A stretch of 64,000 bases of DNA from assembly GCA_017656255.1 (NCBI GenBank), contig JACDOE010000002.1:68033-132032 (forward strand), given 5' to 3'. The first letter of the stretch is position 1, and the number at the start of each line of letters is the position of its first letter. Of this stretch, positions 2 through 54,567 are shown piece by piece. The translations under genes and the position numbers were made by a program. The stretch comes from Bacillaceae bacterium. Its GTDB lineage: Bacteria; Bacillota; Bacilli; JACDOE01. A model generated the notes under the pieces. The model was not told where the DNA came from. It ran no database searches and saw only the letters and a program-made list of their open reading frames with translations.

Positions 2-496
2 CGCATCCCGCTGCCGGATGAAGTGGCCGTCACCGATCCGATCGACTTTGCCGATGAGGCGGATCACCTTTACTGGCGAGACATCATGGAATCTGGAGAC
101 AGCCGTTCATTGCGGACCATGGTCACGGTAACCGATGCTGTCTACTCGCTCACCGTGGAGAACGGCTACTGGTATGAGGGCGAATGGAACGCATTTCCGG
201 ATGTCACCATAACCATTCCATTTGAGACCGATGAAGAAGAGTTGATAAGTGATGCCATCGCGGGATTGAAATCGGCTGATCTACAGGGGCAGGCTGAGCA
301 AACCCTGGAGATGCTGGAACAGTTTCAGGTTCAACCTCCCACCACGACATCGGAACTGGAGGGGGCCATCGACCAGCTGAGCAAAACCCTCCATCTGCTG
401 GCGACCGAACCTGAACATGACACCCTACGGTATCGTCTGGAGCGTGTGCTGGATCTCTATCAGGCAATCTGGTATTTGGGAGGTAGAACGGGATGA
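2..496 (+). CDS. 3' part of an unrecognised gene, cut by the left edge
   Basis: The frame is open through position 2 with no stop, so this is the C-terminal part of a longer protein. The GTG at 23 has no ribosome site and is probably an internal valine. The visible 165 residues begin with an acidic, beta-rich stretch and end in a helical half (about residues 80-160) with regularly spaced leucines. I do not recognise a family and see no membrane segment in this part. The stop overlaps the start of the next gene as ATGA (493-496), so the two are very probably translationally coupled. That suggests the product works with the large secreted toxin-like protein downstream, perhaps as a partner or secretion factor; this is inference only. 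Confidence 0.6.
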   Translation, partial: RIPLPDEVAVTDPIDFADEADHLYWRDIMESGDSRSLRTMVTVTDAVYSLTVENGYWYEGEWNAFPDVTITIPFETDEEELISDAIAGLKSADLQGQAEQTLEMLEQFQVQPPTTTSELEGAIDQLSKTLHLLATEPEHDTLRYRLERVLDLYQAIWYLGGRTG

Positions 497-3400
497 ATGC
501 TTTCGGAAAATATAAAAGATGGATGCGAAGCCTGACCTTTTTGCTCCTGTTTACGTTCAGTTTCAGTTTCGGATTTCCCACCCATTTTATCATGGCCGGG
601 TATCAACTGAAGCAATTCCATGCGCCGACCGCTTTTGCCGCATCGTCTGGATCTAACGGGGAGTCGTTTCGGACGGAGTTGAGCCGGCTGGCGCAGGAAC
701 TGGATGCATTGTACGATCAGATTCAATCCGATATCGAAAAAGAAGATTTAAAGGCGATCAAAGAAACACTCAAACAGATTCAAAAAACGCTGAAAGATTC
801 CAGGTTGAAGGTTGACAATGAATTTGACCGTCAGGCGGAACGTTTAAGCCGGATCAAGGCACAGAATGCCTTAAAGCGCCAGGCCAGATTTCAGGATCAG
901 CTGGATCAGGGATTCAGTGATCTGGAAGCTCAAATCAAGGCGTTGCAACAACTGGTCAGCAGAGGGAACAGTTTTCAGCAACTGGATGAAGAGGCTATCC
1001 GTCTCGCTCTGGGTGAAATAAGAGATTTAATGAAGCCGGAGACACCGGAATTTCCGATGGGGAACAAACTCCCCCATCGGAATCTGGCCACAGAGCCTCA
1101 GAGCCCGGATGCTTCTGTATCCACTACGTCTGAAATAGAATCGATGTCCCTTCCGGATCAACCGGGAAGTGAGGATCTGGCTGAAACACCGGAAACACGC
1201 GTGACAGATGCCATCAGGCAACTGGCTGATTCCCTTGGGGATGATCCTCAGGCGCTCTATGAATATGTGCGTAACCATATCGAATTTGAGCCCTATTACG
1301 GTTCCCGCAAAGGGGCGCAGGGCACCCTGGATCAAAAAGAAGGAAACGACTATGACCAGGCCTCGCTGTTGATTGCCCTGCTGAGGTATCACGATATACC
1401 GGCCCGGTATGTCCGGGGTGTGGTGGAAGTCCCCGTTGAACAGGCGATGAACTGGGCGGGGGCGGAAACACCGGAAGCCGCAATCCGTGTGCTGGGGTCC
1501 GCCGGTATTCCGGTTACCGGTGTAGTGTCTCAGGGGAAAGTGACGGCCGTCCGTATGGAACATGTCTGGGCAGAAGCTTATGTCCCATATGAAAACTACA
1601 GGGGTCAGGGAGAGCGTACCGGAACCCATGTCTGGGTCCCGCTGGATCCGAGTTTCAAACAATATACAGAAAAAGAAGGGCTGGATTTTCAACAGTTCGG
1701 GGAGATCAATCAGGATACGATTTTCCGGGCGATGAATGACAGTGCCCGATCCGGAGATGGCCTCAGCACCGCCTATGTGAATATGCAATCGATTCAGCAA
1801 CAGGTGCTTCAGGCGGTGGATGAGCTGGAAACCTATGTCCAGGATAACGATCTGGCCGGGGCCCCGCTTGAAGAGTTAATCGGCGGAAGGGACATTGTCG
1901 AGGAAAATCTCGGATTGTTGCCTCTTTCATTGCCCTATGAGATTGTAGAGGTTTCGGATGAATTCCGGGAAGTCCCGGACGCTTTAAGTGATCGTATCGG
2001 CTTCCGAATCAGCGGAGCAGATCCATTCGGATTCCAGTTTTATGGAGAGGCCGATTTTGAATACCAGGCAAGGGCCGTGGATCTTTACGGGAAACGCCTC
2101 ACCCTGTCCTGGGTCCCGGCCACTCAGGAAGATGAGGATATCATCGAAGAGTACGGCGGCCTGTTTCAGACCCCCGCTTATCTGGTACAGGTAAAACCGG
2201 TGATCAAGGCGGACGGTGAGGTGATTGCCGAAGGTCAGCCGGTGGGCCTGGGTTACAATCAGCAATTTACCATAGACATGCAGTCGGCCGGAAAAACACC
2301 GGAACAAGTGGTGAACCCGGTGACCACCGGTTCCTTTTACGCGATTATCTTCAATTACGGCAAGATTTCCGCCGGAGAACTGAATGAGATTCAGGCCGGC
2401 ATTGAACAACTGCAGGGAACAGTCACGGAAGAGAACCTGTATACAGATGAAGCGATGGGAGAAATTCTGAATGCGGCGGGGAAAGCCTATTTTGCCCAGC
2501 TGGATGTGACGGATCAGATCATCGCCCAGCAGTATGACGTTGAGGCGACTCCCCTGTTAAAAGAAGCAATGACCGGTTATCGGGTCAATGTCAGTTATAT
2601 GTTCATGAGCCCGGTGCAGATCAATGCGGGTGGCCTGTTCATCGATGTGGACCACAATGTCTACTCGGTGGTCAGCCAGACCGGGCAGGACGATGACCGG
2701 GTTGCGTTTATGCTGGCATCCGGCATGATTGCTTCCGCCATGGAACACGGCATTTACGAGCAACTGATCGGGGTGCCTTCTGTATCGGCGATCAAAATTC
2801 TCGAAGAAGCTAATAATAGAGGGGTTCCGCTTTATACGGTGACCTCGGGCAATGTCCAGGAAATCCTGCCTGAATTAAGTGTCAGCTCAACCGTCAAAAC
2901 AGACATCTCCAATGCGGTCAATCAGGGAAGAATTGTCCTGATACCGGAGCACAATATTCAGTATTATGACTGGAACGGTGCCGGGTATATCGTACTGGAT
3001 CCCGATACAGGCGCCGCCGGGTATATGATCAGCGGCGGTATTGCCGGGGGTTCGTCCAGTCTGATTGTGACGCTGGCTGCCCTCATTGCCGTGATCGATA
3101 CGATCATCATGATCCTGTCCTCGCTCAGCCTGCTGGCTGCGGGAACCATTGTCGGCGCAATCTTCGGCATTGCCCTGCTGGCACTGGCCATAGCCTTTGC
3201 GGTCCAGTTGACTAATTTGATGATTGATTACTATATTTACGGAGACACGGCAGCCGGTCAGGCGATTATAGGGGAAGCGTTACTGAGTATTATCGGAGCC
3301 ATCGGCGGTAGTGTGCTGGCCAAGGTCATCCCGGGACTCAGCCGATTCCTGGATGATGCGTACCAGGCTGTCAAAAACGCGTTGAAACATACGGACATCG

Positions 3401-4314
3401 CGGAACAACTGGCCAAAGACTATTCCGATGACTTTGTGGATAGCCTGGTCCGGCATTCCGGAACTGATGTGCTGGAAGAAGCGTCTGATATTGTAAGAGG
3501 CCTGGAACGCTCGGGTGTCAGTAAGGACCTGATAGAAGAGGTCGGACACTCGGCTGGAAAAGAGGGGCTTGAACAACTGCAGAATCTGGTCAACAAGGGA
3601 CTGAATGAATCCCAGATCCGTCAGATTCTGGACAGTAAAATCGGTCTGGATGACGCATCCCGACTGGCTGACAGCCAGATTCTTCCCGAACAGTATCTGG
3701 ATTACGGCATTCGTAACGGAACGGAAGCCCGGGCGGTTAGTGACCTGCTGGACAACGGACTCAGTAAGGAAGCGATTGAGACGATCACCGGCAACGGGGT
3801 CAAACCTTCCTATTTTGAAAAATTGGGAGTGGACACCGTTGAAGGGGCGACCAAATATATCGATGACCTGAATAACGGACAAAGAATCGCCGACCTGACC
3901 GGTGATGTGGTGAAGTATCCGGACGGCAATGTGTGGGATCTGGATCATTTTACAAGAGGGAAAGAAATTGATGAACTGCTTGGAAACAACCTCGGTGACA
4001 ACTTCCCGGTAATTGACAAATATGATCCTGACAGTCGGATCATTACCAGCATCAAGAGTTATAATCCGTCCTTGAAAAGTCACCAGGGTTCCCAATTTTA
4101 TAGTAATATTAAAAGGGACATCGATAAGTTGAATGAATTTAAAGATGCATACTGGAATGACATAGATATCAACCCCAACCTTTATGACACCAAAACGCTG
4201 CAAATTGCACTGCCGGATGTGAAACTGACCGGCACCCAGGTTGACAGTTTGAACCGTGCAATCGATTATGCCCGCGGTCTGAAAATTGATGTTGTCATTA
4301 CTGTTGTGAACTAG
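493..4314 (+). CDS. Secreted transglutaminase-fold polymorphic toxin with C-terminal nuclease-like domain
   Basis: A 1273-residue protein with a GGGAGG ribosome site 9 nt before its ATG. In order: signal peptide (about 1-50, ending AFAA), long coiled coil (55-180), transglutaminase-like fold (about 235-395), a long beta-rich region, a glycine/alanine-rich hydrophobic segment (about 850-950) that could insert in a membrane, helical repeats (950-1130), and a C-terminal module (about 1140-1273). In the transglutaminase core the His (H357, EHVWAEAY) and Asp (D385, PLDPSFK) are present, but the catalytic Cys position reads NDYDQAS, and I find no cysteine anywhere in the protein, so this domain is probably structural. 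The C-terminal module carries E1158/E1161, D1175 (VIDKYD) and K1188 (SIKS), the layout of PD-(D/E)XK nuclease toxins of the CdiA-CT type. Two small genes follow directly, as immunity genes do. The toxin role is inference; the domain order is visible. Confidence 0.72.
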   Translation: MNAFGKYKRWMRSLTFLLLFTFSFSFGFPTHFIMAGYQLKQFHAPTAFAASSGSNGESFRTELSRLAQELDALYDQIQSDIEKEDLKAIKETLKQIQKTLKDSRLKVDNEFDRQAERLSRIKAQNALKRQARFQDQLDQGFSDLEAQIKALQQLVSRGNSFQQLDEEAIRLALGEIRDLMKPETPEFPMGNKLPHRNLATEPQSPDASVSTTSEIESMSLPDQPGSEDLAETPETRVTDAIRQLADSLGDDPQALYEYVRNHIEFEPYYGSRKGAQGTLDQKEGNDYDQASLLIALLRYHDIPARYVRGVVEVPVEQAMNWAGAETPEAAIRVLGSAGIPVTGVVSQGKVTAVRMEHVWAEAYVPYENYRGQGERTGTHVWVPLDPSFKQYTEKEGLDFQQFGEINQDTIFRAMNDSARSGDGLSTAYVNMQSIQQQVLQAVDELETYVQDNDLAGAPLEELIGGRDIVEENLGLLPLSLPYEIVEVSDEFREVPDALSDRIGFRISGADPFGFQFYGEADFEYQARAVDLYGKRLTLSWVPATQEDEDIIEEYGGLFQTPAYLVQVKPVIKADGEVIAEGQPVGLGYNQQFTIDMQSAGKTPEQVVNPVTTGSFYAIIFNYGKISAGELNEIQAGIEQLQGTVTEENLYTDEAMGEILNAAGKAYFAQLDVTDQIIAQQYDVEATPLLKEAMTGYRVNVSYMFMSPVQINAGGLFIDVDHNVYSVVSQTGQDDDRVAFMLASGMIASAMEHGIYEQLIGVPSVSAIKILEEANNRGVPLYTVTSGNVQEILPELSVSSTVKTDISNAVNQGRIVLIPEHNIQYYDWNGAGYIVLDPDTGAAGYMISGGIAGGSSSLIVTLAALIAVIDTIIMILSSLSLLAAGTIVGAIFGIALLALAIAFAVQLTNLMIDYYIYGDTAAGQAIIGEALLSIIGAIGGSVLAKVIPGLSRFLDDAYQAVKNALKHTDIAEQLAKDYSDDFVDSLVRHSGTDVLEEASDIVRGLERSGVSKDLIEEVGHSAGKEGLEQLQNLVNKGLNESQIRQILDSKIGLDDASRLADSQILPEQYLDYGIRNGTEARAVSDLLDNGLSKEAIETITGNGVKPSYFEKLGVDTVEGATKYIDDLNNGQRIADLTGDVVKYPDGNVWDLDHFTRGKEIDELLGNNLGDNFPVIDKYDPDSRIITSIKSYNPSLKSHQGSQFYSNIKRDIDKLNEFKDAYWNDIDINPNLYDTKTLQIALPDVKLTGTQVDSLNRAIDYARGLKIDVVITVVN

Positions 4315-4333: not shown

Positions 4334-4771
4334 ATGAAGATGTATAGAGCCAGTGTTTTTAAAGATGAGCACGATACGATATTGATGTTTCCTGTGGGAA
4401 GAGATGAAAATGGTATTCCCAGGACAATGAATCAACATATTAAGTTAGAGCCTCCATATGCGGTTGAGATGATCGGGGAAAAATTACTGCAGTGTCTGGA
4501 AATGTCCGCAACCGATGAGCCTGTCTCGGCAGAAGGGAAACGTGCGTTTGAAAGTGCAACCGGGATTAAAAGTTTTAAAAAATTCTCGCAAAACCGTTTG
4601 ATGGTGGGTGTGACCTGGCTGGAAGACAGGGGATATATCTTTTCCGCCTATAAAAGGGATAAAAAAGGTGCTTACCTGGGAACGGGAGAAGAGAATAACC
4701 TGGGTTCCGGGGCTGGTCCGGAAGCAATTGGGGAGATGCTACTGGAAACGTTTAAGCTGAGTAGTTGTTGA
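4334..4771 (+). CDS. Probable immunity protein, copy 1
   Basis: 145 residues, ATG start with GGAGG 9 nt upstream, 19 nt after the toxin stop. No signal peptide or membrane segment, so it is probably cytoplasmic, as expected of an immunity protein that neutralises a nuclease toxin. I do not recognise a named family from sequence alone. It is closely similar along its whole length to the gene at 4908, including identical first 13 residues (MKMYRASVFKDEH) and an identical C-terminal tail (ETFKLSSC). Position immediately after the toxin domain, small size and duplication are what support the immunity call. It is followed by its own intrinsic terminator. Confidence 0.6.
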   Translation: MKMYRASVFKDEHDTILMFPVGRDENGIPRTMNQHIKLEPPYAVEMIGEKLLQCLEMSATDEPVSAEGKRAFESATGIKSFKKFSQNRLMVGVTWLEDRGYIFSAYKRDKKGAYLGTGEENNLGSGAGPEAIGEMLLETFKLSSC

Positions 4772-4907: not shown

Positions 4908-5348
4908 TTGAAGATGTATAGAGCCAGTGTTTTTAAAGATGAGCACGATACGATATTGATGTTTCCTGTGGGGAGAGATGAAAATGGTATTCCGACGATG
5001 ATGAATCAACATATTAAAGTTGACCCTCCATACACGGCGAAGGATGTCGGGGAGAACCTGTTACACTGCCTTGAGATGTCTGGCACCGATCAGCCTGTTT
5101 CTTCGGAAGAAGGGAAACGTTCATTTGCAGATGCAACTGGAATCAAAAGCTTTAAGAAATTCTCGCAAAACCGTCTATTGGTGAATGTGGTGTGGCTGGA
5201 AGACAGGGGCTATATCTTTTCCGCCAATAAGAGAGACACGAAAGGTGCTTACCTGGGAACGGGAAAAGAGAATAATCTGGATTCCGGGGCTGGTGCGGAA
5301 GCAATTGGGGAGATGCTACTGGAAACGTTTAAGCTGAGTAGTTGTTGA
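4908..5348 (+). CDS. Probable immunity protein, copy 2
   Basis: 146 residues, paralogue of the preceding gene (roughly four in five residues the same by eye). Here the start codon aligned with copy 1 is TTG rather than ATG (GAATTGAAGATG versus GAAATGAAGATG), with the AAAGGAGG site retained at the same distance, so translation is probably weaker. Differences concentrate at residues 30-65, for example a KVDPPYTAKDVGENLLHC stretch where copy 1 has KLEPPYAVEMIGEKLLQC, and an extra Glu near residue 67. This may be a second immunity gene with altered toxin specificity, or a dosage copy. No toxin fragment remains between the copies. Confidence 0.58.
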   Translation: MKMYRASVFKDEHDTILMFPVGRDENGIPTMMNQHIKVDPPYTAKDVGENLLHCLEMSGTDQPVSSEEGKRSFADATGIKSFKKFSQNRLLVNVVWLEDRGYIFSANKRDTKGAYLGTGKENNLDSGAGAEAIGEMLLETFKLSSC

Positions 5349-31452: not shown

Positions 31453-31545
31453 CCTTCGATAAAGGCAAATCCATTGAAAAATGGAGGCGCAATTCCACAG
31501 GCCTAAGGCTCTTAGAGCTATGGCAGCTGGGATCCCGAAAAGGTG
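31453..31545 (+). ncRNA. Cyclic di-GMP-I (GEMM-I) riboswitch
   Basis: The conserved core is recognisable: AAAGGCAAATCC, the GAAA tetraloop-type hairpin CCATTGAAAAATGG, GGCGCAATTCCACAGGCCTAA, then ATGGCAGCTGGGATCCCGA closing the second arm. The base equivalent to G20, which selects c-di-GMP over cGAMP, is G. It is followed at once by a terminator and then the HD-GYP gene, so it is a transcription-attenuating switch. About 90 nt, as usual for the class. Confidence 0.85.
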
Positions 31546-34371: not shown

Positions 34372-35682
34372 CTATGTTACCGGCACCTCTGTGTCCGCCT
34401 CGGATTGAACCCGCTGCTGCATCCCGGACATAATACGGGAAGCAAGCCCCATCCCGATCAGTCCCATCAAGAAATAAATCCCGGATATCACCATCGCGGA
34501 CAGATATTCGCCCACAATCACAAATACCCCTCCCATCAACATCGCCAGTTGATGAGTCATTCCATTCAGTGCCAGATAGGAACTTCGGGAATTGACGGGG
34601 GCCATATTACCAAGTGTAGCCTGCCAGATAGGGGCATACATCAACTCCCCCAGCGTGGCGATAAACATGGCAGCGATCAGAATCCAGGGCGAACCTGCAA
34701 ATCCAAGAACCGCATAACCGGCAGAATAGAACAACAAACCGGCGTATAGAACACGGCGATCCGGCAGATGACGGGTCGCCCATCCCACCAGTCCCATCAG
34801 CAAAACCACCAGCAGCGTATTCTCGGATTGCAGAATACCCACCATTCGAAATCCGTCGAGATCAAGGGAGAAAGAGAACAGAGAGAACAGTGTCTCCTCC
34901 TCCAGTTCCCGTTGCAGGCGGATCCCGATATAGTTGGACAATTGAAACTCCAGTGTCGTAATCAGGATTCCCGTAATCATAAACATCAGAAAAAGTCGAT
35001 CCCGGATGACACGCCGATAATTGCGGGCCATATCCAGCATGCCCCGCAACACATAGCCCAGCGCCCCTTTATTCTCTGAAGCCGACGGTTCATGGTAAGC
35101 CGGGGAAGGCCGGTAGGTCTCCGTAATGAAAAACCGCGTCACGATAACCGAAACAAACAGGATAATCGCCAGAGCGAGGAACAGTTCAAACCGATGTTCC
35201 TGAAATAGAAACGCGCCGATTAGGCTGCCGGCGGCAAAGGCCAGGTTAAAGATCCAGTAAAAAGCGGCAAAAATAGGCTTTCTGGATTCCGGCGTACTGA
35301 CATCGATCACCATCGCCTGTGAAGCCGGCTCGGACGCACCCATAAAAAACATGTTGACCAGAAGGAGGAGGAAGGTGAGGTACGGTGAATCGACCAGCGG
35401 TGAATTCACCAGTGCCACACCAAGAAACGTCACCCCCATCACCGCCTCCGAGATCAGCATTAACTTTTTTCTCCCGAGGCGGTCGGAGATAAATCCTCCT
35501 GTGATCCCTCCAGCAATGCCGGATACCACAATTCCCATCATCATCAAACCCGTCCACTGGGCCCCCACTCTCGAAGCCAGGTAGATCGCCAGAAAAGGGA
35601 AAATGGTGTTGGATGCGAGCGCAACTAAAAACTGAATACCCAGGCGAATCTTAATGTTTCGATGAAAATCACGAAATCTCAT
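34372..35682 (-). CDS. MFS transporter, probable drug efflux
   Basis: 436 residues with about 12 membrane helices. The loop after helix 2 carries major facilitator motif A, GGFISDRLGRKKLM, and helix 1 reads LGIQFLVALASNTIFPFLAIYLA. This is a proton-driven antiporter group that often exports drugs; substrate unknown. AAGGAGGG lies 4-5 nt before ATG. It starts 12 nt after the stop of a 39-codon ORF and about 600 nt from its likely promoter, behind small ORFs and a terminator, an arrangement seen in antibiotic-inducible resistance genes. The C-terminal tail is Gln/Ser-rich. Confidence 0.88.
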   Translation of the reverse strand: MRFRDFHRNIKIRLGIQFLVALASNTIFPFLAIYLASRVGAQWTGLMMMGIVVSGIAGGITGGFISDRLGRKKLMLISEAVMGVTFLGVALVNSPLVDSPYLTFLLLLVNMFFMGASEPASQAMVIDVSTPESRKPIFAAFYWIFNLAFAAGSLIGAFLFQEHRFELFLALAIILFVSVIVTRFFITETYRPSPAYHEPSASENKGALGYVLRGMLDMARNYRRVIRDRLFLMFMITGILITTLEFQLSNYIGIRLQRELEEETLFSLFSFSLDLDGFRMVGILQSENTLLVVLLMGLVGWATRHLPDRRVLYAGLLFYSAGYAVLGFAGSPWILIAAMFIATLGELMYAPIWQATLGNMAPVNSRSSYLALNGMTHQLAMLMGGVFVIVGEYLSAMVISGIYFLMGLIGMGLASRIMSGMQQRVQSEADTEVPVT

Positions 35683-35694
35683 GGGGCCCTCCTT

Positions 35695-35814
35695 CTACAG
35701 GTAGAACATATGGTCTGTCTGGGAATTCCACTCATTTTTCAAATAATCGCGGTATTCCCAGTCTTTGATACTCGGGCTAATCAAAAAAGAGAAATATTCG
35801 AAAAACATCATCAT
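35695..35814 (-). CDS. Putative 39-residue leader peptide 3, upstream of the MFS gene
   Basis: A 39-codon ORF beginning MMMFFEYFSFLISPSIKDW and ending NSQTDHMFYL, with a very good AAAGGAGGG 7 nt before ATG. Its stop TAG touches the SD of the MFS gene (AAGGAGGG begins right after it), so ribosomes finishing here can restart on the transporter. No known family; rich in Phe and Tyr. I read it as a leader or coupling peptide; whether it has a function of its own is open. Confidence 0.5.
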   Translation of the reverse strand: MMMFFEYFSFLISPSIKDWEYRDYLKNEWNSQTDHMFYL

Positions 35815-35899
35815 TTGTTTTCCCTCCTTTATGCATACGAATGTCCATGGCAGTTCGGTTTGCCGGTTTCTGTCCCGGCATTTGGATTGCAAAAATCAT
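35777..35899 (-). CDS. Putative leader peptide 2, overlapping peptide 3 (start uncertain)
   Basis: AAAGGAGGG at 35907-35917 precedes two out-of-frame ATGs. With the one at 35899 (spacing 9) it encodes 40 residues starting MIFAIQMPGQKPANRTAMD, running across the SD and start of peptide 3 in another frame. With the one at 35906 (spacing only 2-3) it encodes 25 residues (MHDDFCNPNAGTETGK...) that stop exactly at the SD of peptide 3. Codon spacing favours the first, coupling logic favours the second. I cannot decide. Confidence 0.35.
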   Translation of the reverse strand: MIFAIQMPGQKPANRTAMDIRMHKGGKTNDDVFRIFLFFD

Positions 35900-35936
35900 C
35901 GTGCATTCCCTCCTTTAAAAGATTGGTTTGAGATAA

Positions 35937-35976
35937 ATAAAAAAGCCGCAGGTCGCCGGAATGGCGTCCTGCGGCA
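35937..35976 (-). terminator. Leader terminator upstream of peptides 2-3 and the MFS gene
   Basis: On the minus strand GCCGCAGGACGCC / GGCGACCTGCGGC (one mismatch), ATTCC loop, then TTTTTTATTT. Only about 20 nt separate it from the SD of peptide 2, leaving no room for a normal promoter, so MFS transcripts starting upstream must pass through it. Confidence 0.8.
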
Positions 35977-36056
35977 AATTTGATAATGCCGTAATACGGT
36001 CGGGATGATGACCTGCTCGATAGGTATGGGTAAGCAAAAATTCAAATCAGGGATTA

Positions 36057-36090
36057 TGTTACAAACATACCCATGAGTATGGATGTAACA
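36057..36090. repeat. Dispersed palindrome, copy 2
   Basis: TGTTACAAACATAC - CCATGA - GTATGGATGTAACA: 14 bp arms with one mismatched pair, same family as 7728-7765 and 47438-47473. It lies inside the MFS leader. Confidence 0.75.
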
Positions 36091-36116
36091 GGCTTACCGT
36101 GAAAAAGGGTTTCGAA

Positions 36117-36218
36117 TCAGGTAACCGGACCGTCGAGAAAAGAGGAGCCGTTCCGATGACTCAGTCTATTCAGATACAGGGTTGGGATATGACCTGCAGT
36201 ATGTTTAATCTTAATCAT
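36117..36218 (-). CDS. Putative 33-residue leader peptide 1 of the MFS leader
   Basis: 33 codons beginning MIKIKHTAGHIPTLYLNRLS and ending SFLDGPVT, with AAAGGAGG 9 nt before ATG and a plausible promoter 65-90 nt upstream. Its SD is the left arm of an inverted repeat whose right arm lies inside codons 23-28, so folding of the mRNA would hide its own SD. It is too short for most gene finders and I know no homologue. Best read as a regulatory leader ORF. Confidence 0.5.
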   Translation of the reverse strand: MIKIKHTAGHIPTLYLNRLSHRNGSSFLDGPVT

Positions 36219-36238
36219 TGTTCGGCTCCTCCTTTCTC
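36135..36238 (-). promoter_or_regulatory. SD-sequestering inverted repeat around leader peptide 1
   Basis: Plus-strand arms GAGAAAAGAGGAGCCG (36135-36150) and CGGCTCCTCCTTTCTC (36223-36238) are complementary at 15 of 16 positions, spaced 72 nt. In the minus-strand RNA the 5' arm contains AAAGGAGG of peptide 1. Confidence 0.65.
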
Positions 36239-36280
36239 TGGAATTTATTTTTCCATTTTTTGTTGATTAATATGTCAATT

Positions 36281-36309
36281 ATGTTAGCACCTTTTGGAGC
36301 AAGTGTAAA
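36281..36309 (-). promoter_or_regulatory. Candidate sigma-A promoter of the MFS leader
   Basis: Minus strand TTTACA (36309-36304), exactly 17 nt spacer, TAACAT (36286-36281). The next feature downstream is the SD of peptide 1. Confidence 0.5.
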
Positions 36310-36340: not shown

Positions 36341-37087
36341 TCAGTTACCAGGATCGGAAGATGGGTTATCAATCGGTGCCGGTTGATGGCCGGAACCGGA
36401 CTCGTCTTTTTTCGGCTGGGATGGAGCGGGTTGTTTTGGCTGCTGCTGTTTCATCTGGGCCATGATTTTTTGCACCTCTTTCTGAACGGCCATTTGTATC
36501 ATTTTTTCCAGTTCGGCTGCGATTTTTGGATCTTTGAGCAGCGGTAACATCGCATCCGCCATTTTACTGCGCAGGGGAGGGGTGTTACTCACGGCGCTGA
36601 ACTCCTGTATGTTCTGGGTCAACAGCTGGTTTCTCAGTTTCGGGTCTTTCAGCGATTTCTGTCTGGATAATTGTTCAATCTGGAACATCTGTCGGTGTGC
36701 TTTTGTGTCATGCGTGATACCTTCCATGGATTTGATGGATGATACTTTTAACTGTTCCAGCCCTTGCTCATCCCGGGTCATCAACCTGTTAATCTCAATG
36801 TTGAAATCAAGCAGGCGTGACCGAAGCTCCGGATCTTCAAGCATCATATTTTGCTCGGTTAAAACATTTTGTAAAATAACCTTTCTTGCTTGATGATCTT
36901 GCTTCATCACGTCAACCCTGCCCCGGGAGAATGAGGTTTGTACCTGTTCACTCCGGGCCATGTTTTCCGTCATCTGCTCCATACCCTGTGTACCCATTTG
37001 TCCGTTCTGTCCCTGCTGATTACACCCTGCGGCGAGAAACACCACACAGGTGAAAAGGGCGATCCATCCCGTCGGTTTCCATCTCAT
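36341..37087 (-). CDS. Lipoprotein of unknown function, GerD-like in style
   Basis: Start at 37087 (MRWKPTGW) with AGGAGGG about 11 nt upstream. 248 residues: lipobox VFLAAGC gives lipid-anchored Cys22, then a Gln/Met-rich helical protein with repeated LEDPELRSRLL, LKDPKLRNQLLTQN, LLKDPKIAAELE units, each resembling the DPELxxxL repeats of spore germination lipoprotein GerD. The C-terminus is Pro/Gln/Ser-rich. I cannot say it is GerD: length and position differ. Divergent from the coiled-coil gene at 37250. Confidence 0.65.
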   Translation of the reverse strand: MRWKPTGWIALFTCVVFLAAGCNQQGQNGQMGTQGMEQMTENMARSEQVQTSFSRGRVDVMKQDHQARKVILQNVLTEQNMMLEDPELRSRLLDFNIEINRLMTRDEQGLEQLKVSSIKSMEGITHDTKAHRQMFQIEQLSRQKSLKDPKLRNQLLTQNIQEFSAVSNTPPLRSKMADAMLPLLKDPKIAAELEKMIQMAVQKEVQKIMAQMKQQQPKQPAPSQPKKDESGSGHQPAPIDNPSSDPGN

Positions 37088-37249: not shown

Positions 37250-38200
37250 ATGTTTGACACCTTGAACACAAGGTTGCAGGAGGTTAAAAAGAACCAGCGG
37301 GAACAGAGAAGGTTACAGTCGATATTAAAACAGACGGAACAGGAATTGCAGGACCAGCGAGAAAAGGCGGAACAGGCGAGACGGCAGCTGGAGAAGGAAG
37401 AGGAAGATGTCGAACGGCTGGAAGGGATGAGTCTGGTTAACTTATTTTCCACGATGCTGGGCAAAAAGGAAGAGCGGATCCGGACCGAAAAACAGGAAGC
37501 GGTAAGGGCCCGTCTTCAGTATGAGGAAGCGCAACAAACGTTGAAAGACATGGAGCAGGAAGTGGCTGATCTCAGGCGAAAAATCAGCGCGCTCGGCGAT
37601 GTGGATACCGCATACAAAGCCATTTTAAAAGAGAAAGAACAGTTTATTAAACGTGAAAAACCGGGACTGGGAGAAAAATTGTATCAACTGGCGGAGAAAA
37701 AGGCGGAGCATCAGGCCCTGCTTAAAGAAGTGGAAGAAGCACGGCAGGCAGGCGAGGATGTTGCAGGGGCACTGGACCGGGTACTTGAGAGTTTAAACAA
37801 GGCGGGAGGCTGGGGAGCCTTCGATATGCTGGGGGGCGGTTTGATCAGCACTGCTGTCAAGCACCGTCATATCGATGATGCCAGGCAGCATGTTCATATC
37901 GCCCAGAAACACATGCGTCGGTTCAAGAAAGAATTGAAGGATATTGATACTGACCTGAATCTCAAGCTGCGAGTCGAAGGGCTGCTCACGTTTGCCGACT
38001 TTTTTTTCGACGGACTGATCGTGGACTGGGTGGTGCAGGGACGTATCCATGAAACCAGTGACAGAGCGGAGAAGAACCGACAGGAAGTTAAGGACCTGAT
38101 CAGGCAACTGGAGCACCAGAAACATCAGCTTAAAACCGAAATCAGCCGGTTGTCTCAGGAAACCATCCGGTTGATTGAGCGGGCGGGCAATCAGGGCTGA
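37250..38200 (+). CDS. Coiled-coil cytoplasmic protein, unknown function
   Basis: 316 residues, mostly charged coiled coil (about 5-125 and 205-310). A less charged central piece holds GGWGAFDMLGGGLISTAVKH (about 183-202), a glycine-rich stretch that could touch a membrane or a partner, and LTFADFFFDGLIVDWVVQGR near 245-264. No signal peptide. The build (long helices, Gly-rich hinge) recalls but does not match PspA or SMC-like families. ATG at 37250 with GGGATCGGG upstream, a poor ribosome site. Divergent from the lipoprotein gene. Confidence 0.7.
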   Translation: MFDTLNTRLQEVKKNQREQRRLQSILKQTEQELQDQREKAEQARRQLEKEEEDVERLEGMSLVNLFSTMLGKKEERIRTEKQEAVRARLQYEEAQQTLKDMEQEVADLRRKISALGDVDTAYKAILKEKEQFIKREKPGLGEKLYQLAEKKAEHQALLKEVEEARQAGEDVAGALDRVLESLNKAGGWGAFDMLGGGLISTAVKHRHIDDARQHVHIAQKHMRRFKKELKDIDTDLNLKLRVEGLLTFADFFFDGLIVDWVVQGRIHETSDRAEKNRQEVKDLIRQLEHQKHQLKTEISRLSQETIRLIERAGNQG

Positions 38201-38282: not shown

Positions 38283-38960
38283 ATGATGGTTCGCATCGTC
38301 CTGGTTGGTTTGCTTTTTTTCTTCCTGATTCCGGCGGGATCCGTGTCCGCACAATTACTCTACCCGCAACCGGATGTCCTGATTGACGCCGGGCATGGAG
38401 GTATTGACAGCGGTACGTCAGCCGGTCATGTGTATGAAAAAGACCTCAATTTGAAAATGGGTCTCGTCCTGTATGAAAAGCTCGCCGACAGAGGGTACCA
38501 TGTGGTGTTGAACCGGACCGGGGACTATGCTTTGAGTGATGAGAACCAGTGGCTCCGTTCGTCTTCCCGTCACAGGCGGGATCTGGCACAGCGTAAAGGT
38601 CTGATTGACACCCTGTCCCCCCGGGTTGTGGTCAGCCTTCATGTCAACTGGGCCGGAAATTCACGCAAACGCGGCCCTCTCGTCCTGTATCAGAAAAATA
38701 CCCGCAGTTTTCTCCTGGCCGAACAGATTCAACAAAGTCTCAATCAATTGTACAAAACTTCCTTTCTACCGATTCCCGGTAAAACCTACTATATCCTTAA
38801 CCGGACCGAAGTCCCCACCGTCATTGTCGAAATGGGCTATATCAGTAACCCGTCTGACCGTGAGTGGTTGAGCGTTGATTCCCAGCGGGAAAAACTGGCA
38901 GAAGCCATCATGCTGGGAATTGAAGACTATTTTACGCTGGTTAACCGATGGCGTCCTTAA
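38283..38960 (+). CDS. N-acetylmuramoyl-L-alanine amidase (Amidase_3)
   Basis: 225 residues: signal peptide (about 1-24, VLVGLLFFFLIPAGSVSA), then a full Amidase_3 zinc hydrolase domain with the zinc ligands in DAGHGGIDSG (His), YEKDLNLKM (Glu) and VVSLHVNW (His), and the catalytic Glu in TVIVEMGYISNP. It cleaves the lactyl-L-Ala bond of peptidoglycan outside the cell. No SLH, SPOR or LysM domain attached; CwlD of spore cortex has a similar single-domain build. Two adjacent ATGs (38283, 38286) share GGTGA. Confidence 0.9.
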   Translation: MMVRIVLVGLLFFFLIPAGSVSAQLLYPQPDVLIDAGHGGIDSGTSAGHVYEKDLNLKMGLVLYEKLADRGYHVVLNRTGDYALSDENQWLRSSSRHRRDLAQRKGLIDTLSPRVVVSLHVNWAGNSRKRGPLVLYQKNTRSFLLAEQIQQSLNQLYKTSFLPIPGKTYYILNRTEVPTVIVEMGYISNPSDREWLSVDSQREKLAEAIMLGIEDYFTLVNRWRP

Positions 38961-54199: not shown

Positions 54200-54314
54200 T
54201 TGATCAAGTATGTTAGCCCTGCCCTGCGCCGCTTTAGAAGAAAAAGATTGTCTCCCCACCACCTATCGCCTATAATGAATACAACAATGTAACAGTCTGA
54301 CAATTTCATTTTCG

Positions 54315-54495
54315 GCAAACAGGTCTTCACCTTAACCGGTGAAGATAATAGGGAAGTCCGGTGAAAGTCCGGCGCGGTCCCGCCACTGTAATTGGGGAGC
54401 CTGGCTTCATTTACGCCACTGTCAAATCAGTTTTGACGGGAAGGTGAAGCCCGGGTGAAGATCCATAAGCCAGGAGACCTGCCTGTTTGTAAGAT
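54315..54495 (+). ncRNA. Cobalamin riboswitch
   Basis: Conserved blocks in order: AACAGGTCTTCACC, GGGAAGTCCGGTGAAAGTCC, GCGGTCCCGCCACTGTAA, and GCCAGGAGACCTGCCTGTT (54469-54486), i.e. the B12 box and the closing arm. About 170 nt, a normal class I aptamer. It governs the operon that starts at 54659 and is followed by a terminator. Confidence 0.95.
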
Positions 54496-54567
54496 GCTGA
54501 TTCCTTCGGGTTCAAAGGAAAGGCATGACATTCAAACGGTTGTATCTTGCCCTTTGTGTGTTTAATG

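Follow-up and report, generated by a model that had tools for sequence, protein, structure and literature searches.

A probable ribosome-mediated transcription attenuator of an LmrP-like exporter gene, with the leader start site as sensor

In the window, by which we mean the whole 64,000-nucleotide stretch of Bacilli DNA that was analysed, an LmrP-like exporter gene stands behind a leader that we regard as a likely ribosome-mediated transcription attenuator, in which the start site of a leader open reading frame (ORF) would act as the sensor. This leader ORF is folded into a hairpin and would probably turn the exporter on only when ribosomes are stuck on the leader. The strongest feature of the leader, which the earlier note on this DNA overlooked, is a helix (P1) between the Shine-Dalgarno sequence (SD) of the leader ORF and a segment of the same ORF, the anti-SD. 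In the predicted alternative the anti-SD pairs with the 5' half of a downstream terminator. The elements and both predicted pairings are borne out by the sequence and by relatives.

The transporter encoded behind the leader matches PF07690 (MFS_1, E 1.5e-36), and the sole solved structure with significant similarity to it is that of Lactococcus lactis LmrP (6t1z, E 1.3e-33, residues 3-410), with which it shares full-length similarity as a distant member of the same family by sequence. Lincosamides, macrolides, streptogramins and tetracyclines are all ribosome drugs, and LmrP exports them (PMC4634932). We predict that the window protein is an LmrP-like multidrug exporter, and it would remove drugs that target the ribosome.

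Leader elements and the two competing pairings

The elements lie on the minus strand in the order promoter, ORF1, palindrome, terminator, ORF2, ORF3 and MFS gene, with the paired strands as follows:

36281..36309, minus strand: promoter from a consensus scan, with -35 TTTACA, a 17-nt spacer and TAACAT with a preceding TG as an extended -10 (TGCTAACAT)
36223..36238, minus strand: 5' arm of P1 (GAGAAAGGAGGAGCCG), which includes the ORF1 SD
36117..36218, minus strand: ORF1, the 33-codon leader ORF (MIKIKHTAGHIPTLYLNRLSHRNGSSFLDGPVT), SD AAAGGAGGAG
36135..36150, minus strand: 3' arm of P1, the anti-SD (CGGCTCCTCTTTTCTC), inside ORF1, codons 23 to 28
36057..36090, minus strand: palindrome (TGTTACATCCATACTCATGGGTATGTTTGTAACA)
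35945..35975, minus strand: intrinsic terminator hairpin (GCCGCAGGACGCCATTCCGGCGACCTGCGGC), then TTTTTT; -24.1 kcal/mol
35958..35972, minus strand: terminator 5' half (GCAGGACGCCATTCC), alternative partner of the anti-SD instead of its own 3' half
35777..35899, minus strand: ORF2, putative SD-led small ORF, SD AAAGGAGG
35695..35814, minus strand: ORF3, putative SD-led ORF of 39 codons, SD AAAGGAGG
34372..35682, minus strand: predicted LmrP-like MFS multidrug transporter gene, 436 aa, SD AAGGAGG

Every element named in the earlier note (promoter, 33-codon ORF with a strong SD, palindrome, terminator, two SD-led ORFs and MFS gene) was recovered. A short SD-led leader ORF lies downstream of a promoter, and both sequence and folding place an intrinsic terminator between this ORF and the gene. 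The palindrome is nested in a larger helix with the closing strands GGTAAGC/GCTTACC (36098-36023) and belongs to this genome only, being absent from the leaders of relatives. As a whole, the leader folds more stably than 100 of 100 dinucleotide shuffles (z = -5.0), and a search of Rfam 15 gave no match above the gathering score within it.

The arms of P1 form 16 consecutive pairs, with a duplex energy of -31.5 kcal/mol (z -5.2) that 0 of 300 dinucleotide shuffles matched. The anti-SD lies in the final third of ORF1, and the SD that P1 sequesters is the leader's own, not that of the transporter. The terminator 5' half is an imitation of the SD arm: in the window, AGGACGCC of the terminator pairs with GGCTCCT of the anti-SD, with one bulge, and the duplex of anti-SD and terminator 5' half reaches -14.7 kcal/mol. 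Because the anti-SD is a partner common to the SD arm and the terminator 5' half, it could shut the leader start or open up the terminator, never both; in silico, the antiterminator is mutually exclusive with the terminator and with the upstream anti-antiterminator that holds the ORF. The anti-SD/terminator pairing of the window is modest when taken alone (p 0.018 and 0.046 with two shuffle types), and none of 232 other leader positions pairs as well with the terminator 5' half. Another antiterminator for the window, formed by an upstream GCAGGTC and the terminator 3' arm, was rejected, as its partner strand is made late and the pairing was judged kinetically unlikely.

Downstream of the terminator, the start of ORF2 may be chosen at 35899 (40 codons) or, in another frame, at 35906 (25 codons), and ORF2 overlaps ORF3. 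The 254-nt interval between the terminator and the MFS gene contains three ORFs that begin with ATG, are 20 aa or longer and have an AAGGAGG-type SD, against a shuffle mean of 0.001. The earlier note had proposed two regulatory tiers; its transcription tier is supported, while neither the translation tier nor any function of ORF2 or ORF3 found support. In such a second tier, added to the transcriptional switch, translation of ORF2/ORF3 after read-through would open a structure hiding the exporter SD, by translation attenuation, as in the ermC type, or by coupling. This would fit with AAAGGAGG SDs of ORF2 and ORF3 beyond chance, with an exporter start only 12 nt after the end of ORF3, and with an exporter SD that is predicted to be mostly paired (28% unpaired, in one fold of one sequence). 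However, that fold is a prediction from a single sequence and ORF2/ORF3 are absent from every relative examined, and we hold this additional tier to be rather unlikely.

The same interval bears on whether exporter transcripts must cross the terminator. A gap too short for a promoter, as had been claimed, holds for ORF2 but not for the transporter, which is 250 nt from the terminator, and this distance has room for another promoter class. The terminator could then only end the transcripts of the upstream gene, with an unrecognised exporter promoter inside ORF2/ORF3 and with incidental pairings, and many LmrP-like relatives are leaderless and controlled otherwise, for example by a TetR-type gene directly upstream. 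Nevertheless, a consensus scan of the minus strand found no sigma-70-like site from the terminator to the transporter, which is weak evidence; in addition, the leaders of relatives have promoter-like sites just upstream, and their matched pairings are far above chance. We give this explanation little credence, and an exporter mRNA that has to read through the terminator is plausible from the sequence.

Several other features surround the leader. A lipoprotein-like gene adjoins it (36341-37087, minus strand), with no Pfam or NCBIfam match; by eye only it is GerD-like and may encode a spore-germination protein. A divergent coiled-coil-like gene (37250-38200, plus strand), likewise with no Pfam or NCBIfam match, is followed by a CwlD-like amidase at 38283. 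Farther away on the plus strand, a c-di-GMP-I riboswitch (31454-31539, 79.1 bits) lies directly 5' of a gene for an HD-domain (HD_5) protein at 31543, an arrangement that may place a likely c-di-GMP phosphodiesterase under a sensor of c-di-GMP, and a cobalamin riboswitch (54304-54500, 127.5 bits) precedes a cobalamin biosynthesis gene cluster. The proteins of two adjacent plus-strand ORFs, at 4334-4771 and 4908-5348, are almost the same (MKMYRASVFKDEHDTILMFPVGRDENGIP...); the pair is a recent tandem duplication located behind a very large gene (493-4314), and its products are possibly immunity proteins.

Related leaders, their specificity and ancestry

For its genus and order, this genome was the only one available for comparison, and a protein scan of genome contigs with the window MFS protein turned up no close relative. 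We gathered over 100 LmrP-like loci, mostly 35-44% identical. Alicyclobacillaceae and one neighbouring family (f48) contributed 14 further leaders with the same three-way layout, each ahead of an LmrP-like gene. In these, a promoter-like site is followed by a leader ORF of 17-34 codons, then by one or two intrinsic terminators and the LmrP-like gene; the SD/start of the leader is paired with a stretch at the ORF end, and in most of them the -10 of the promoter-like site is about 30-50 nt upstream of the leader start. The window leader differs from these in a 150-nt insert with the palindrome, in a longer distance from anti-SD to terminator (154 nt versus 13-67 nt), in the extra ORF2 and ORF3, and in having one terminator where most relatives have two. 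The tandem terminators are seen in most Alicyclobacillaceae leaders (L009, L075, L094, L109, L010, L115, L116 and L118), and in such leaders the anti-SD pairs best with the first terminator.

A MAFFT alignment of the hairpins was too poor for a useful covariance model, and swap tests and a detector were used. The sequences of the P1 arms vary among leaders, as in L009 (GTGGGCAAG/CTTGCCCAC), L116 (GCGAGGACACG/CGTGCCCTCGC, one mismatch) and L124 (GGGTGTGAATCCA/TGGATTCACACCC). In the P1 swap test, the duplex energy of SD arm and anti-SD from the same leader was compared with that obtained with the anti-SDs of other leaders, using one leader per relatedness cluster. The matched sum was reached by 0 of 50000 permutations (p < 1/50000), and removal of the two strongest leaders, the window among them, left p = 0.00016. 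Judged from these sequences, P1 is kept in relatives despite sequence change.

The second pairing follows the same pattern, with terminator and anti-SD strands of GGGCAAGTC and GGCTTGTCC in L119, GGACGAGTC and GACTTGTCC in L101, and GGCAAGC and GCTTGCC in L120. Matched anti-SD/terminator pairs exceeded swapped ones (p = 0.00015); a rerun gave 0.00008 with all leaders, 0.0009 without the window and 0.0055 when L124 was also left out. When a 24-nt frame was slid along each leader, the anti-SD was the top partner of the terminator 5' half in 13 of 15 leaders, the window included, although G+C-rich anti-SDs inflate all their pairings, an effect controlled by the swap test and not by the sliding test. 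By shuffling, L022, L118 and L010 are weak examples. Taken together, these comparisons indicate that both pairings are kept through sequence change in relatives.

Conservation of the leader peptides, which the earlier note had put forward as a check, did not materialize: the peptides have no consistent sequence in common and differ almost completely. As the RNA pairings outlast this divergence, the conserved sensor is probably something other than the encoded peptide. Macrolide-arrest leader peptides of the ErmDL / Mef(E)L type have a conserved R/K-X-R/K arrest motif; the window peptide carries KIK at residues 3-5, and a comparison of such tripeptides across the 15 leaders revealed no common motif at a fixed place. 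Codon 2 is Arg in 12 of the 15 leaders (L094, L109, L010, L022, L115, L116, L118, L119, L101, L121, L120 and L075), as in the MR[I/M] consensus of the cplR upstream ORF (uORF), and which may in part reflect a pairing constraint on ATGCG.

The detector required an SD-led ORF, P1, a terminator and the anti-SD/terminator pairing. It matched 15 loci, all of the leader type (two being the same locus), and none of the 99 other LmrP-like loci, many of which lack room for a leader; it missed the leader L010, whose leader ORF sits within a longer open frame. In a run across 1.4 million strand-bases with 649 terminators, the window ranked second overall, a few unrelated matches reached -40 or better, and unrelated matches of equal score were rare. 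By itself the detector score is suggestive, and the argument is carried by the relatives. One such match in the window itself (about 58.6-59.2 kb, plus strand), which scores -44 and spans the point where a phosphatase-like gene ends, is probably chance. When other genes were searched with the Alicyclobacillus leader consensus, only LmrP-like loci were returned, plus one match inside a coding region (L129), which was dismissed as chance. A 12-aa "leader" upstream of Brevibacillus-type homologues was also rejected, as it is part of a TetR-type gene.

A tree of 114 LmrP-like proteins places 13 leader genes in a single 17-member clade with full support, and the window protein lies outside this Alicyclobacillaceae leader clade, as sister to 38 leaderless genes. 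The window leader is therefore either an old form that was lost elsewhere or an independent invention. The relatives test the layout, and not certainly the window element, whose homology they leave unproven; what they indicate is that the layout has been selected upstream of this gene family.

Folding models and the proposed switch

Window transcripts were folded with the leader free or with its start masked. In a transcript that ends at the terminator loop, the free leader has 16.8 expected pairs in P1 and 0 in the antiterminator, while masking of the leader start at the same length leaves 0 in P1 and 9.3 in the antiterminator. In the full leader, masking lowers the terminator pairs from 11.9 to 3.7. 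These folding models predict that occupancy of the start site flips the window leader from terminator to antiterminator.

The masked-start switch is stable from 37 to 65 C, and P1 is barely weaker over that range, which speaks against temperature as the signal. Temperature is one form of a switch that works without ribosomes; a ligand-binding RNA in the 150-nt window-specific insert, or an RNA-binding protein, would be others, and the big extra helix with the palindrome, absent from relatives, could be seen as such a module. Yet the leader has no Rfam match, and the pairing switch common to relatives centres on the leader SD and start codon, so that we find control of this kind improbable.

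In most relatives, the antiterminator forms with a mask on codons 1-5 and is lost with one on the ORF end; in the window model, the switch opens only with the start codon in the ribosomal P site, and codon 2 already closes it. This bears on a different arrangement, in which a drug-arrested ribosome, stalled late in the leader by its nascent peptide, blocks the terminator directly, with no separate antiterminator, as tlrB and msrDL do (PMC6851288, PMC10314930). Arg-rich peptide ends in several relatives (RMRRQH, SRHLR, RGRKR) and the K-I-K of the window would be in keeping with it. But the window terminator begins 142 nt past the ORF1 stop, outside any ribosome footprint, a ribosome on the anti-SD would abolish the antiterminator, and the peptide sequences are unconserved. 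Direct blocking is in our opinion very unlikely.

We hypothesize instead that the attenuator works through the leader start. With no ribosome on the leader, P1 would form, the terminator would fold and transcription would stop. In normal translation, the ribosome would quit the start quickly and sweep the anti-SD, again allowing the terminator. Were a ribosome held at the leader start or close to it, as by inhibitors of initiation or early elongation, it would cover the SD arm and leave the anti-SD free; the anti-SD could then pair with the terminator 5' half, and RNA polymerase would enter the exporter gene. Drug-held ribosomes would be the signal. In equilibrium folds the completed terminator still prevails in most relatives, hence the switch there would have to be kinetic, which would place it in the time course of transcription.

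Ribosome-mediated transcription attenuation, as the earlier note suggested, is backed by computation and by relatives, through a mutually exclusive antiterminator that is kept under sequence change. More tentatively, since the SD is the anti-antiterminator strand and the terminator mimics the SD arm, the exporter might be switched on, with any peptide, by every condition that parks ribosomes at initiation or within the first codons. The leader would then read the occupancy of its own start site, and not a peptide-specific arrest, as a peptide-independent sensor of translation initiation, kept across Alicyclobacillaceae and possibly evolved twice; we see this extended reading as conceivable, and as the less probable part of the proposal.

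Known attenuators and significance

The closest comparison is with leaders of ABC-F genes. In vmlR of Bacillus subtilis, a uORF in the 5' stem-loop SL-1 was shown experimentally to be part of an anti-antiterminator, and a drug-stalled ribosome at the uORF frees the antiterminator, which opens the intrinsic terminator (PMC9226507). The window leader has the same logic, here in silico: a leader-ORF hairpin as anti-antiterminator, and a stalled ribosome that would release the antiterminator and open the terminator. However, the vmlR uORF has 3 codons and its SD is single-stranded before SL-1, whereas the window ORF has 33 codons, its SD is itself a paired strand that has the last part of this ORF as its partner, and the gene is an MFS exporter. 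In cplR of Clostridioides difficile, a 5' hairpin sequesters the uORF and a terminator is next, with attenuation of both transcription and translation (PMC10201436). Sequestration of the leader ORF in a 5' hairpin and a downstream terminator are common to both; the cplR uORF differs in having 3 codons (MR[I/M]), its terminator hides the gene SD, and the gene family is another.

The mef(E)/mel system of Streptococcus concerns MFS efflux, with a leader ORF, a terminator and an anti-attenuator whose first strand is just 3' of the ORF (PMC4335068). It resembles the window in placing an MFS drug exporter behind these elements, but its 8-codon leader encodes MTASMRLR, a macrolide-arrest peptide whose stall motif is conserved; its distal repeats are AU-rich, the second of them overlapping the terminator and the poly-U tract of that terminator, and its leader RBS is not described as a paired partner. 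For tlrB (yxjB) of Bacillus, a leader peptide, a terminator and an SD-sequestering structure are reported, with the B. pumilus leader SD in a weak hairpin (PMC6851288). These parts recall the window leader; in tlrB, however, a C-terminal RYR arrest directly obstructs the terminator, an overlapping antiterminator has not been identified, and the gene encodes an rRNA methyltransferase. The literature searched, mainly papers outside subscription, contained no report of a comparable leader for lmrP and no description of the window layout or of a comparable Alicyclobacillus leader. The window leader departs from vmlR, cplR and mef(E) in using its own SD as the pairing strand, in an ORF that extends across the hairpin, by which translation would pass over the antiterminator strand, and in a terminator that mimics the SD arm.

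This appears to be an undescribed attenuator layout for LmrP-type exporters, present in Alicyclobacillaceae and in this lone Bacilli genome. The layout would explain why leader peptides of this kind are not conserved, as the selected feature would be an RNA strand common to the leader RBS and the terminator. It also gives a rule by which other unannotated antibiotic-responsive leaders may be recognised, namely an SD arm, an anti-SD at the ORF end and an SD mimic in the terminator, and it predicts that the inducers would be drugs acting at initiation or at the first codons.
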